In this document: piece by piece, positions 5,958 through 37,923 of the stretch
Layout of the letters: each line of letters begins with the position of its first letter
Numbering within the stretch: position 1 is the first letter of the stretch
Position numbers and translations under genes: made by a program
Notes under the pieces: generated by a model
What the model was told of the DNA's origin: nothing
Database searches by the model: none
What the model saw: only the letters and a program-made list of their open reading frames with translations
DNA from: Chromatiales bacterium
GTDB lineage: Bacteria; Pseudomonadota; Gammaproteobacteria; SpSt-1174
Length of the DNA stretch: 37,990 bases
Direction of reading: 5' to 3'
Assembly (NCBI GenBank): GCA_014762505.1
Contig: JABURS010000016.1
Coordinates: 1-37,990 of the forward strand

Positions 5958-6413
5958 GTAGGAGTGGTGCGAGCCGCGATGCCGATATCCGGCGAAGCTG
6001 CCGTGCCCGATCGCGCCTTGCAGCGCTCCTACGGAGCCGCGGTTTTTATTGTAGGAGCGGTGCAAGCCGCGATGCCGATGTCGGGCGAAGCTGCCAGACC
6101 TTATCGCGCCTGGCGGACGCTCCTACGGAGCCGCGGTTTTTGTTGTAGGAGCGGTGCGAGCCGCGATGCCGGTGTCCGGCGAAGCTGCCGTGCCCGATCG
6201 CGCCTTGCAGCGCTCCTTCGGAGCCGCGGTTTTTGTTGTAGGAGCGGTGCGAGCCGCGATGCCGCTGTCGGGCGAAGCTGGCATGCCTTATCGCGCCTGG
6301 CGGACGCTCCTACGGAGCCGCGGTTTTTGTTGTAGGAGCGGTGCAAGCCGCGATGCCGATGTCGGGCGAAGCTGCCAGCCCTCATCGCGCCTGGCGGACG
6401 CTCCTACGGGTGC
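5958..6413. repeat. Tandem array of five ~93-bp REP pairs (family 1)
   Basis: Units start at 5958, 6051, 6145, 6238 and 6332, so the period alternates 93/94. Each unit opens with GTAGGAGCGGTGC(A/G)AGCCGC and closes with the inverted partner ending GCGCTCCTAC or GACGCTCCTAC. The hairpins are GCGG/CCGC and GCGC/GCGC around TGCAAG. Units 1 and 3 share one right half (CCTTGCAGCGC), while units 2, 4 and 5 share another (CCTGGCGGACG), suggesting growth by duplicating a two-unit block. It lies directly upstream of the RAYT gene. Confidence 0.93.
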
Positions 6414-6485
6414 CAGGGTTGTATCGCCGGTGATCGTCGGGTCTAATGCCCACGTCAGCTTCATCTCCAGGGAATGGAGGGCTTC

Positions 6486-6953
6486 ATGGCAAGACAAGGA
6501 CCGCATGGCCGGGCGTTACGCCATGGACGTTATTCTGAGCCCGGTCGCATCTACCACGTCATTTCCACCACCCGGCAACGCTTGCCGTTGCTCTCCTCAT
6601 TCGAATCCGGGCGTGCCGTGGTTGCGGCGATGAGGCGTCTGGATGAATCCGCCGCCACCGATACCCTGGCCTTCGTCGTGATGCCGGATCATGTCCATTG
6701 GCTCTTCGAGCTTGGCAGGGCCATGCCGTTGTCGCGTGTGGTGGGGAGCTTCAAGAGCCATAGCGCCCGTGAGCTGAACAGGCATCATGCACATCCTTGC
6801 CGAACGGTCTGGCAACGGGGCTTCTTCGATCACGCCATTCGCGCGGAGGAAGATATTCGCGCGGTGGCCCGTTACATCGTGGCCAATCCGCTCAGGGCGG
6901 GGCTGGTCACGTCGCTGCGGGATTATCCCCTGTGGGATGCGAAATGGGTTTAG
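6486..6953 (+). CDS. REP-associated tyrosine transposase (RAYT, Y1/IS200-like)
   Basis: A 155-residue protein of the Y1 transposase superfamily. It has the RAYT opening GRYSEPGRIYHVISTTRQRL, the metal-binding HUH motif MPDHVHWLF in mid-protein, and the helix with the catalytic tyrosine ARYIVANPLRAGLV near the C-terminus. RAYTs nick single-stranded REP hairpins and are thought to spread them; they are usually single-copy and domesticated. The ATG at 6486 is chosen because GGAGG lies 5 bases upstream of it; an in-frame ATG at 6474 lacks such a site. REP arrays flank it on both sides (5958-6413 and 6964-7119), as expected of a RAYT with its own substrates. Lengths and motifs appear complete, so it is probably active. 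Confidence 0.92.
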   Translation: MARQGPHGRALRHGRYSEPGRIYHVISTTRQRLPLLSSFESGRAVVAAMRRLDESAATDTLAFVVMPDHVHWLFELGRAMPLSRVVGSFKSHSARELNRHHAHPCRTVWQRGFFDHAIRAEEDIRAVARYIVANPLRAGLVTSLRDYPLWDAKWV

Positions 6954-6963
6954 CTGCCGCCCC

Positions 6964-7119
6964 TTATCGCGCCTTGCAGCGCTCCTACGTAGCCGCGGTT
7001 TTTGTAGGAGCGGTGCAAGCCGCGATGGCGCTGTTGCGAGAATCTGCCGCCCCCTTATCGCGCCTTGCAGCGCTCCTACGTAGCCGCGGTTTTATTGTAG
7101 GAGCGGTGCCAGACGCGAT
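6964..7119. repeat. REP pairs downstream of the RAYT gene (family 1)
   Basis: Two copies of the right half (CGCGCCTTGCAGCGCTCCTACG) alternate with two left halves (GTAGGAGCGGTGC). The spacer AGCCGCGG followed by a T-run is shared with the upstream array. The last left half is degenerate (CCAGACGCG). The array ends just before the stop codon of the convergent gene at 7137. Confidence 0.9.
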
Positions 7120-14054: not shown

Positions 14055-14248
14055 GTGCAAGCTGCGATGCCCGGTGCCGGGTGAAGGTACCGCCCCGATC
14101 GCGCCTTGCAGCGCTCCTACGAGAGCAGTGGTTTTCTGTAGGAGCTGCGCAAGCTGCGATGCCCATACCGGAGACGGAGCTGCCAACCCTGATCGCGCCT
14201 TGCGGGCGCTCCTACGGGTGCTGGCCTTTCTCTGTGCCCTCTGTGGGG
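14055..14248. repeat. REP pairs (family 1) and a CACAGAGG-family element
   Basis: GTGCAAGCTGCGATGCC (14055-), an inverted half ending GCGCTCCTAC (14120), a second left half GTAGGAGCTGCGCAAGCTGCGAT (14138-14160) and an inverted half ending at 14216 make two pairs. The left stem here is AGCT/AGCT, a third stem variant. CTCTGTGCCCTCTGTGGGG follows at 14229. This fills the gap between two convergent genes, with no gene in it. Confidence 0.8.
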
Positions 14249-19882: not shown

Positions 19883-19905
19883 GTAGGAGCGCCGCAAGGC
19901 GCGAT
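19883..19905. repeat. Solo REP hairpin in the ssrS-fau gap
   Basis: GTAGGAGCGCCGCAAGGCGCGAT: stem GCGCC/GGCGC around GCAA, between the shared flanks GTAGGAG and GAT. It is one of the few single, unpaired copies. Confidence 0.85.
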
Positions 19906-33719: not shown

Positions 33720-33791
33720 GTAGGAGCGCCGCAAGGCGCGATCAGGCTTTGACCTGCGCTGGAACGCCATCGCGCCCTGCAGCGCTCCTAC
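33720..33791. repeat. Inverted REP pair (family 1) between tpx and gcvPB
   Basis: GTAGGAGCGCCGCAAGGCGCGAT (left, stem GCGCC/GGCGC, loop GCAA) and an inverted partner ending GCGCTCCTAC. It lies inside an operon and may stabilise or end the upstream message, changing the amount of gcvPB relative to tpx. Confidence 0.9.
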
Positions 33792-35693: not shown

Positions 35694-36278
35694 ATGAAAC
35701 GACTCCTCCTGATACTCGGCGGCATCGCCCTGCTGTTCTACTGGATGGGCCGGCAACCGGTCGAGGTGCCGCCGGGGCAGCTGGCGCCGAGCATCCCAGT
35801 CCAGCGGGACCTGCATGCGGCACCCGCCCTGACGCACAACGGCTACGCGCTCACCGCCCTGGCCGATTTCGAGATCGAGGCCCGCGTGCTCGCCACCGAG
35901 CGCTACCGTATCGGGCGCGAGGCCGAGCTGTCACCCGTCGATCTCGCCCTGGGCTGGGGGCCGATGTCCGACTCCGAGGTGCTCCGGCACATCAGCATCC
36001 GTCAGTCCAATCGCTTCTATTACTGGCGTGTCGAGCAGTTCCCCATCCCGCGCCGCGACATCGAGACCCACTCCGCCAACATGCACATGATCCCCGCCGA
36101 CAAGGGCGTCCGCGACACCCTGCTCGATGCGCGCCCGGGGCAGGTCGTCCGCATCCAGGGACGCCTCGTGCGCGCCGATGCCGACGATGGCTGGCACTGG
36201 GTCAGCTCGCTCACCCGCAACGACACCGGCAACGGCGCCTGCGAGCTGGTATATGTGGAGCATGCGGAGTTGAGGTAG
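35694..36278 (+). CDS. Membrane-anchored protein of unknown function
   Basis: A 194-residue protein. One N-terminal helix (LLLILGGIALLFYWMG, about 4-19) lacks a cleavage site and probably anchors it; the rest (YALTALADFEIEARVLATER, then LALGWGPMSDSEVLRHISIRQ, NRFYYWRVEQFPIP and HSANMHMIPADKGVRDTLL) would be periplasmic. HIPAD-like and GQVVRIQGRLV stretches resemble proteins I have seen annotated as hypothetical in gammaproteobacteria. The last base pair of the gene is inside a REP element: its stop TAG is the TAG of GTAGGAG. It follows dgkA by 27 bases. Unknown function. Confidence 0.8.
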   Translation: MKRLLLILGGIALLFYWMGRQPVEVPPGQLAPSIPVQRDLHAAPALTHNGYALTALADFEIEARVLATERYRIGREAELSPVDLALGWGPMSDSEVLRHISIRQSNRFYYWRVEQFPIPRRDIETHSANMHMIPADKGVRDTLLDARPGQVVRIQGRLVRADADDGWHWVSSLTRNDTGNGACELVYVEHAELR

Positions 36279-36344
36279 GAGGCCAGCACCCTGGCCGACA
36301 AGGTACCGGCACGGAGGCCATCGCCGAGAGGGCTCGGCTCCTAC
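36275..36344. repeat. Family-2 REP pair overlapping a stop codon
   Basis: The left half GTAGGAG-GGCCAG-cacc-CTGGCC begins within the last codons of the upstream gene, supplying its TAG. The right half is the inverted GCCGAG/CTCGGC hairpin ending CTCCTAC. Confidence 0.88.
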
Positions 36345-36367
36345 GGTGTGGTGACAGGCACAAAAAT

Positions 36368-36441
36368 GTAGGAGGCCAGCCCCCTGGCCGATAGGGTTGC
36401 ACCCGGCATGGTCATCATCGCCGAGAGGGCTCGGCTCCTAC
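36368..36441. repeat. Family-2 REP pair
   Basis: GTAGGAG, stem GGCCAG/CTGGCC around CCCC, then GAT. The partner is GCCGAG/CTCGGC around AGGG, ending CTCCTAC. With the previous pair it fills most of the gap 36279-36534. Confidence 0.9.
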
Positions 36442-36534
36442 GCAACTTGTGACTTAATCCCCCCGTAACCCCCGCTTCACGTCCGCGTCATCCCCGCCTG
36501 CAATCCTCCTCCAAACCATCATGGAGGGGCCGCC

Positions 36535-37359
36535 ATGACGTCCTTGCACTTTCGCAGCATCTTCATCTCCGACGTGCACCTGGGTACGCGCGACTGCCGC
36601 GCGGACTTCCTGGTCGATTTTCTCGAGTCCACCGAGAGCGAGTTTCTCTACCTGGTCGGCGACATCGTCGACCTGTGGGCGATGCGCCGCTCGGTGCACT
36701 GGCCGCCCTCACATACGCGGGTGTTGCAGCTGATCTTCGAGAAGGCGGCGAAGGGCTGTCGGGTGGTCTATATCCCGGGCAATCACGATGAACTGATGCG
36801 CGACTTCGTCGGCACCGAGATCAACGGCGTGAAGATCCTGCGTGATGCGGAACACCGGACGAACGACGGGCGCCGGTTCTTCGTCAGCCATGGCGACGAG
36901 TTCGATACCTTTGTGCGTCACAACGGCCTGCTGCGCGTGGTGGGGGACGGGATCTATCCCTTCCTGCTCATGCTCAACCGTGGCTTCAACGGCCTGCGCC
37001 GCCGCTTCGGCCACCCCTACTGGTCGCTCGCCAGCTTCATCAAGTCGAAGGTGGGGAACGCGCGCCGTTACATGGACAAGTACGAGACCGCCGTGGCCCG
37101 GTCGGCCGCCAGCCAGGACTACGACGGTCACATCTGCGGCCACATCCACAAGGCGGGCATCGTCTCGCGCGACGGCATCCTCTACTGCAACGACGGCGAC
37201 TGGGTGGAGCACTGCACCGCCCTGGTCGAGGACGCGGAGGGCCGCCTCAACCTCCTGCACTGGGCGGACCGCAAGCAGATCGAGCAGGTGAGCGAGGGGA
37301 TGGCGGTCGAGGCGGCGCTGATTCCGTTGACGGCGTTAGGGTTCAGGCATCAGGCGTAA
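36535..37359 (+). CDS. LpxH-like UDP-2,3-diacylglucosamine diphosphatase family phosphoesterase
   Basis: A 274-residue calcineurin-like metallophosphoesterase. Metal motifs: ISDVHLGT near residue 12, VGDIVDLWAMR near residue 40, PGNHDE near 82, HGDEFD near 120 and CGHIHKAG near 200. The length and the HGDEFD segment fit LpxH/LpxH2, which hydrolyses UDP-2,3-diacyl-GlcN to lipid X in lipid A synthesis. Neighbours do not confirm the pathway. The second part (GDWVEHCTALVEDAEGRL) is also characteristic of this group. Good start: GGAGGGGCCGCC lies just upstream. Confidence 0.88.
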   Translation: MTSLHFRSIFISDVHLGTRDCRADFLVDFLESTESEFLYLVGDIVDLWAMRRSVHWPPSHTRVLQLIFEKAAKGCRVVYIPGNHDELMRDFVGTEINGVKILRDAEHRTNDGRRFFVSHGDEFDTFVRHNGLLRVVGDGIYPFLLMLNRGFNGLRRRFGHPYWSLASFIKSKVGNARRYMDKYETAVARSAASQDYDGHICGHIHKAGIVSRDGILYCNDGDWVEHCTALVEDAEGRLNLLHWADRKQIEQVSEGMAVEAALIPLTALGFRHQA

Positions 37360-37368
37360 AGGCCAATT

Positions 37369-37434
37369 GCCACAGAGGACACAGAGCTGAGTCGGGCTGT
37401 TTTCTTCCTCTGTGATCTCTGTGCCCTCTGTGGC
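37369..37434. repeat. CACAGAGG inverted pair
   Basis: GCCACAGAGGACACAGAG (37369-37386) and CTCTGTGCCCTCTGTGGC (37417-37434) pair with one mismatch, 10 bases after the LpxH-like stop codon. It may serve as a terminator. Confidence 0.8.
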
Positions 37435-37923
37435 TAAAACAGCTTCAAGGCGCATAGCGCCACCCATGCCTCACACTTGACGCCTCCCGCCCCACCCTCC
37501 GGTAGGAGGCCATCCCTCTGGCCGATGGGGTTGTGCAGCGGGCATGGTCGTTATCGCCGAGAGGGCTCGGCTCCTACGTGTATGGCTCTTCCCCTCTGTG
37601 CCCTCTGTGGCTAAAACAGCTTCAAGGCGCGTAGCGCCACCCATGCCTCACACCTGACGCCTTCCGCCCCATCCTCCGGTAGGAGGCCAGCCCTCTGGCC
37701 GATGGGGTTGTGCAGCGGGCATGGTCGTTATCGCCGAGGGGGCTCGGCTACGTGTATGGCTCTTCCCCTCTGTGCCCTCTGTGGCTAAAACAGCTTCAAG
37801 GCGCGTAGCGCCACCCATGCCTCACACTAGACGCCTCCCGCTCCACCCTCCGGTAGGAGGCCAGCCCTCTGGCCGATGGGGTTGTGCAGCGGGCAAGGTC
37901 GTTATCGCCGAGAGGGCTCGGCT
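37417..37923. repeat. ~175-bp tandem repeat, two full units and one truncated
   Basis: Units begin at 37417, 37594 and 37768. Each contains CTCTGTGCCCTCTGTGGC, a hairpin GGCGC-GTA-GCGCC (in units 2 and 3), and a family-2 REP pair. The third unit's right hairpin stops at the start of the terminal repeat at 37921. Differences between units are few, so duplication is recent. No gene is seen in 37360-37990. Confidence 0.9.

Follow-up and report, generated by a model that had tools for sequence, protein, structure and literature searches.

Two families of GTAG-1 type repetitive extragenic palindromes (REPs), mostly paired into REPIN-like inverted doublets, lie in the window, by which we mean the whole analysed stretch of 37,990 nucleotides (contig JABURS010000016.1 of the Chromatiales bacterium assembly GCA_014762505.1). 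The two families probably answer to different specificities of REP-associated tyrosine transposase (RAYT), with no RAYT visible for family 2 in this genome. Family 1 would be the cognate repeat of the RAYT encoded at 6474-6953, and family 2 would belong to another RAYT specificity, one that is now found next to homologous RAYTs of Thioalkalivibrio, Natronospirillum and Comamonadaceae; in this genome the family-2 RAYT may have been lost, may never have been present or may lie in unassembled sequence. The enzyme would read the single-stranded GTAGGA, an intact hairpin and the loop. The middle stem pairs, which would not be read, would be replaced over time through compensatory changes. The assignment of each family to its enzyme and the role of the loop as a key are inferred from the associations described below.

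Two hairpin types behind one flank

GTAGGAG occurs 31 times in the window against 1.78 expected, a number reached in none of 100 shuffles, and each of the families that carry it is multicopy genome-wide, so that two multicopy REP families with common flanks, as proposed in the initial annotation of this DNA, are indeed present. Family 1 comprises type A, GTAGGA-GCGG(T)-gcaa-(G)CCGC-GAT, and type B, GTAGGA-GCGC(T)-gcaa-(G)GCGC-GAT; family 2 comprises type C, GTAGGA-GGCCAG-ccct-CTGGCC-GAT, and type D, GTAGGA-GCCGAG-ccct-CTCGGC-GAT. The families thus differ in stem length and loop (5 bp with a GCAA-like loop in family 1, 6 bp with a CCCY loop in family 2; loop identity 0.25). The flank had been given as GTAGGAG plus GAT; GTAGGA and the GAT tail hold, while the seventh base, G, is the first stem pair, leaving six unpaired nucleotides. 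Like GTAG-1 REPs, the elements have GTAG at one end, a GA spacer of two unpaired bases before the stem and a 3-nt tail.

Across the genome we counted 86 structured family-1 hairpins (none in controls) and 57 seeded family-2 copies, namely 30 GTAGGAGGCCAG seeds (control, 1) and 27 GTAGGAGCCGAG seeds (controls, 3). The family-1 seed GTAGGAGCG was found 121 times, but this 9-mer is prone to chance matches, its reversed control giving 178. Imperfect copies are under-counted, because genome stretches were picked by 5' seeds and 21 of the 121 GTAGGAGCG places were left out. The region 36275-37923, to which both families had been assigned, holds family 2 only, as 25-nt hairpins with C forward, D reverse and their GTAG ends facing away from each other. 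Family-1 elements are found in other parts of the window, at about 1.1, 6.0-7.1, 14.1, 19.9 and 33.7 kb, and are densest around the RAYT gene. The window copies of both families sit between genes.

Compensatory change in the stems

We next asked how far the two arms of the stem change together. Of the 205 GTAGGAG seeds of the window and 56 genome stretches, 152 lead into a perfectly paired stem of 4 bp or more, against 3.6% of random sequence, and 138 of these 152 elements end in GAT. For the pairing test the geometry was set by the tail and not by pairing; 161 of the 205 seeds fit, and the 44 that fit neither geometry were left out. Watson-Crick cells made up 0.876 in the family-1 geometry (n=102), compared with 0.769 when arms were shuffled between elements (maximum of 1000 shuffles, 0.800), and 0.983 in the family-2 geometry (n=59), compared with 0.815 (maximum, 0.881). 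The statement that both sides of each stem change together therefore stands in so far as pairing exceeds all 1000 shuffles. Changes on both sides are nevertheless few in this genome: they concern pair 4 of family 1 (66 C-G, 35 G-C) and, in the comparison of C with D, pairs 2 and 4; the within-genome covariation counts are inflated by copy number, with few independent swaps behind them. An exception to complementary change is a T.T at pair 3 in 10 of the 102 family-1 elements, where both arms have changed and pairing is lost; T.G occurs at pair 5 in 45 of the 102.

The T.T subtype (T), GTAGGA-GCTGC-gcaa-GCTGC-GAT, has been amplified and is a partner in 11 dimers, although its computed fold is weak. 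Copies lie in the window (14138, forward), at L234 (237 and 329), L236 (1682 and 1913), L268 (824 and 917) and elsewhere. About nine further family-1 copies, with two stem types, carry a loop insertion, TTTATGCCCTCTGGG or close variants of it (L228 746, L230 731, L232 647, L237 1053 and 1161, L244 1086, L247 948, L263 738 and L268 715).

Much more independent change is seen among relatives. We analysed 72 RAYT loci, made up of 56 of 57 RAYT places (the weakest, at 35% identity, was left out) and 16 places in genomes with the exact hairpin C; two of the loci, L176 and L199, hold neighbouring, near-identical RAYTs. We collected every GTAGGA head lying no more than 900 bp from the gene, 312 in all, regardless of the following sequence. 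A perfect 5-7 bp stem follows 216 of them, compared with 2.7 in shuffled sequence, and 42 different stems are represented. Allowing up to one mismatch gives 276 hairpins, of which 263 end in GAT, GAA or GAC. All 38 loci with at least two hairpins have G-C as pair 1, 32 of them have C-G as pair 2, and all four Watson-Crick types are represented at each of pairs 3-5. An alignment with non-covarying arms, which would have spoken against the initial annotation, was thus sought across these loci and not found. Covariation rests on few independent swaps within the genome and is strong across the 72 related loci. Altogether, these results support a hairpin under selection, as had been suggested, whose stem sequence drifts while pairing is kept.

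RAYT genes and the repeats beside them

The window RAYT (6474-6953, forward) has an intact reading frame with an HVH motif and the tyrosine, matches NF047646 with 143.6 bits (cut-off 80) and is similar to the solved TnpA-REP 4er8; the HxH and Y columns are invariant in the RAYT alignment. It is flanked on both sides by family 1 only, with a dimer array upstream (5958-6407) and hairpins downstream (6966-7119). Its sister in a genome of the same genus (G002) is 59% identical and joined to it with support 99/98. The repeats flanking the sister, GTAGGA-GCGAT-gaga-ATCGC-GA and GTAGGA-GCGAC-gaaa-GTCGC-GAT, have the same flank and a GNNA loop on new stems.

This genome encodes a second RAYT, on contig C37 (L010 1240-2090; NF047646, 162.6 bits), which has its own repeat on both sides, CATAGGGCGGCC..GGCCGCC, as well as GGCGGGC..GCCCGCC. 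GTAGGAG is absent from its 3.3-kb locus. We rejected it as the family-2 enzyme because of this absence and the unrelated CATAGGGCGGCC..GGCCGCC repeats around it. The examined assembly contains no further GTAG-type RAYT or remnant at E values up to 10, and no RAYT in it is flanked by GGCCAG or GCCGAG hairpins; a decayed family-2 RAYT was rejected on the same search for remnants.

Exact copies of the 25-nt hairpin C are frequent in other genomes, with at least 120 matching stretches and at least 80 loci spanning beta- and gammaproteobacteria; the matches listed include Thioalkalivibrio, Ectothiorhodospiraceae, Natronospirillum, Comamonadaceae, Comamonas and Polaromonas. Record titles assign these loci to 26 genomes. 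Among the matches listed, 14 of the 26 have a homologue of the window RAYT, in 16 places, and family-2 hairpins flank it at eight of the 16 (GGCCAG at L281-L284, L290, L292 and L293, GCCGAG at L291), in Thioalkalivibrio, Natronospirillum and Comamonadaceae. In the other 12 genomes, which are drafts and include that of the isolate Comamonas badia, no homologue was found at E values up to 1e-10. A phylogeny of the RAYTs unites the four GGCCAG-flanked sequences of Thioalkalivibrio in a supported group; the window RAYT stands apart with that of G002, and the positions of the remaining GGCCAG carriers are not resolved. A second enzyme, one of the options raised in the initial annotation, is thus present on C37, but its repeat is unrelated; RAYTs flanked by family 2 occur in other genera.

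A second class of head was also seen at homologous RAYTs, in which a stem of 7-8 bp begins immediately after GTAG; GTCGGGC and GGCCGAA are frequent stems and TTCA a frequent loop (L189, L203, L206-L208, L214 and L218-L221). At L189 both head classes are present with the same loop.

Geometry, loop and stem within loci

Two recurrent stems occur at one RAYT locus in 24 of the 72 loci, and such hairpin pairs indicate what an enzyme may tolerate. Offset, stem length and loop length are shared by 21 of 26 same-locus pairs, and 19 of 26 also have a loop identity of at least 0.5, compared with 253 of 2320 (11%) between loci. The flank, which had been proposed as the recognised part, is thus not the sole shared feature, since geometry and loop are held in common as well. 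Among the 21 same-geometry pairs, stem position 1 never differs, whereas position 4 does so in 12. Similarity of the hairpins can be predicted from the identity of their RAYTs only when the latter exceeds about 60%. Nor is the stem simply free, since GGCCAG-CCCY is kept at RAYTs only 50-66% identical; the claim that it may drift holds, with pairing kept, across the 72 loci.

These patterns can be set beside the biochemical work on the Marinomonas Mb RAYT, whose REP has the same layout. According to the text of Corneloup et al. 2021 (PMC8266576), substitutions are tolerated at stem positions 2 and 3 and mismatches are harmful, so that stem changes matter little as long as the arms still pair, and three of the four loop bases are decisive.

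Dimers keep to one family

Inverted pairs with outward GTAG ends, the REPIN arrangement, form 61 distinct dimers: 22 CD, 13 AB, 11 BT, 10 BB, one AA and four unclassed. None of the 61 is a hybrid of the two families, compared with 29 expected under random pairing, where the family of dimers whose arms are altered was decided with a pattern written after those arms had been seen. In all 22 typed family-2 dimers of this genome C is partnered with D. Reportedly, the repeated unit in the REPINs of Bertels and Rainey (2011) is two REPs in inverted orientation; the partners here differ from this picture in mostly having different stems.

A computed fold with DNA parameters, covering dimers of 55-85 nt and ignoring proteins and kinetics, gives GGCCAG homodimers of other genomes as one long hairpin (mean -35.6 kcal/mol) and GGCCAG/GCCGAG dimers at means of -18.4 kcal/mol here and -20.7 elsewhere. 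Because homodimers are common in other genomes (24 in the fold set), the weakening of the cross-hairpin by a difference between partner stems is a possible, candidate pressure and not a rule. The preference for heterodimers is described in the text of PMC3733652 as having no obvious explanation. Mean spacer identities of 0.53 (CD), 0.57 (AB), 0.69 (BT) and 0.36 (BB) do not show family 2 to be older.

One specificity or two

Two specificities are likelier than one enzyme because hairpins at the same locus share geometry and loop, the loop is decisive in Marinomonas, the families differ in stem length and loop, and the dimers include no hybrid. Several observations weigh against this conclusion. 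A family without its enzyme should decay, and family 2 is not more decayed, with 0.0345 and 0.0041 substitutions per site in the 3' half compared with 0.0115 and 0.0312 in family 1. Moreover, 14 of the 27 clusters of family 2 have a family-1 cluster no more than 150 bp away, compared with 0.2 expected anywhere in the genome, or 2.3 if only a tenth of it, an assumed fraction, were open to the elements. This intactness and clustering could reflect the action of one enzyme; they could also stem from a RAYT that was lost recently or lies in missing sequence, and from landing sites common to both families. The effects of loop and stem cannot be cleanly told apart either, stem similarity within a locus being 0.67 compared with 0.22 when permuted; because stem similarity tracks the locus too, we softened an earlier claim that the loop alone does so. 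Seven of the 26 same-locus pairs break the loop or geometry rule, 28 of the 72 RAYT loci have no recurrent GTAG hairpin, and the assembly is incomplete.

The initial annotation had also considered a single RAYT for both families. The RAYT at 6474-6953 would then read only the shared GTAGGA...GAT flank and a paired stem, acting on family 2 in trans. Although possible, we regard this as unlikely. The common flank, the lack of another GTAG-type RAYT in the examined assembly, the joint clustering with a family 2 as intact as family 1, and the finding that E. coli TnpA-REP cuts some foreign REPs (reported in the text of PMC8266576) all fit it, but the window RAYT is flanked by family 1 only, stem length and loop differ between families that form no hybrid dimers, loop positions are critical for a RAYT whose REP is laid out in this way (PMC8266576, text), and family-2 hairpins accompany homologous RAYTs in other genomes. 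It is also rather improbable that the organism has a family-2 RAYT in unassembled sequence: assembly of a gene that is about 480 bp long and present once should succeed, and completeness is given as 100, against which stand the division into 43 contigs, many ending in REP-borne insertion sequence copies, and the fresh appearance of family 2. Retention of the elements as transcription terminators or RNA hairpins, with covariation reflecting RNA function and not mobility, is very unlikely. Such a role would agree with the intergenic position of the window copies, the T.G pairs and the covariation itself, which is expected for RNA too; the strand-specific GTAG heads, the outward dimers and the arrays at the RAYT gene and at the RAYTs of relatives fit REP mobility instead. 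Chance or composition bias has next to no probability, for short motifs in a GC-rich genome do not account for 31 heads against 1.8 in the window or 216 perfect stems against 2.7 at RAYT loci.

Beyond the preferred reading of two RAYT specificities, we tentatively offer a wider picture, which is possible but more doubtful than not. Rival RAYTs and an IS110-like element might all dock at the flank, each RAYT having in the loop a key of its own, with the middle stem free; dimer partners might be driven to differ since this weakens the long cross-hairpin, and family 2 might have invaded this genome, its RAYT having since disappeared or lying hidden.

A putative IS110-like element at the shared flank

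Both window edges and several other contig ends are the ends of one insertion sequence, which lies inside REPs of both families. At one edge (about 1-67/69, forward) it sits in a family-1 hairpin, with CTGCGCCAGCTGCGAT following at 70-85; at the other (about 37922/37924-37990, reverse) it sits in a family-2 hairpin. The insertion point is a fixed core: all 13 junctions are at GTAGG-AG, followed by the stem. Six are left-end junctions, after ..CTCGG-CT or ..CGCAG-CT in three cases each (both ends of the window, both ends of C22, and C43 and C4), and seven are right-end junctions, ..CT-CCTAC. The left-end targets are all of the CCGAG and CTGCG types, which account for 42 of the 205 seeds; recognition by the element therefore seems to extend into the stem. 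A C-terminal peptide of only 30 residues shows a weak resemblance to IS110 transposases (NF033542, E 0.0054, 15.9 bits against a cut-off of 140), and the examined assembly contains no PF02371 match and no body of the insertion sequence. Insertion within a REP at a CT core is known for IS621 (PMC11208160, text), and other REP-inserting elements are given in the text of PMC1525189. The element resembles IS621 in both respects; it differs in that its core is the AG of GTAGG-AG and its body is absent from the examined assembly.

Relation to known REP systems

The elements agree with the GTAG-1 REPs that Di Nocera et al. 2013 (PMC3733652) report, in the text, from Thioalkalivibrio K90mix among others: a GTAG end, two unpaired bases, a stem of 5-6 bp and a 3-nt tail, occurrence as dimers, complementary stem subfamilies and association with RAYTs. 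We found no mention there of this genome, its two hairpin pairs, the T.T subtype or the loop insertion. The hairpin sequences were not found in the literature searched, a search that covered text and not figures or supplements. The texts on RAYT/REP pairs (Nunvar et al. 2010, PMC2817692; 2013, PMC3686654) likewise describe complementary mutations that keep the palindrome, orthologous RAYTs with different REP classes and hybrid bacterial interspersed mosaic elements (BIMEs), and state that REPs without a cognate RAYT are frequent. What differs here is that family 2 shows no excess decay despite having no visible RAYT, and that its exact 25-mer extends across beta- and gammaproteobacteria. The Marinomonas Mb REP of PMC8266576, according to its text, shares the 5-bp perfect palindrome two bases after GTAG; the loops here are GCAA-like and CCCY, not TTNA.

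The general phenomenon is therefore already in print, including complementary stem changes, REP class differences between orthologous RAYTs, REPs without a cognate RAYT and hybrid arrays (texts of PMC2817692, PMC3686654 and PMC3733652). The contribution of this work is a clean comparative picture of the hairpin, in effect mutagenesis by nature, showing which features a RAYT may read. Flank and first pair do not vary, the inner stem does so freely, and the RAYT locus usually has its own loop and geometry. Because the genome combines two classes of loop with a single visible GTAG-type RAYT, specificity is directly testable in vitro.

Other elements of the window

The family-2 region begins with a C hairpin at 36275-36299 (forward; GTAGGA-GGCCAG-cacc-CTGGCC-GAC), counted as a damaged unit with its GAC tail, and its D partner at 36320-36344 (reverse; GTAGGA-GCCGAG-ccct-CTCGGC-GAT). 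A C hairpin at 36368-36392 (forward) and its D partner at 36417-36441 (reverse) follow. Next come a C variant, GGCCA-tccctc-TGGCC, at 37502-37526 (forward) and a D hairpin at 37553-37577 (reverse), then a C hairpin at 37679-37703 (forward) with a damaged reverse partner at about 37735-37753, whose GTAGGAG head is partly lost. The last are a C hairpin at 37853-37877 (forward) and the remainder of a D hairpin at 37904-37923 (reverse), cut at CT (GTAGG|AG) by the insertion sequence end. Another family-2 dimer spans 940-1010 (D at 940, forward; C at 1010, reverse), 77 bp from a family-1 hairpin at 1087-1109. The remaining family-1 elements are the hairpins at 14098-14215, one of which carries the T.T at stem pair 3, a lone hairpin at 19883-19905 (forward) and a dimer at 33720-33791.

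Within 37440-37923 a family-2 dimer with about 100 bp of flank is tandemly repeated, at spacings of 177 and 174 bp. A further repeat, CCACAGAGG..CACAGAG / CTCTGTG..CCTCTGTGG, adjoins the family-2 hairpins at 37370-37440, about 37590-37620 and 37760-37800.

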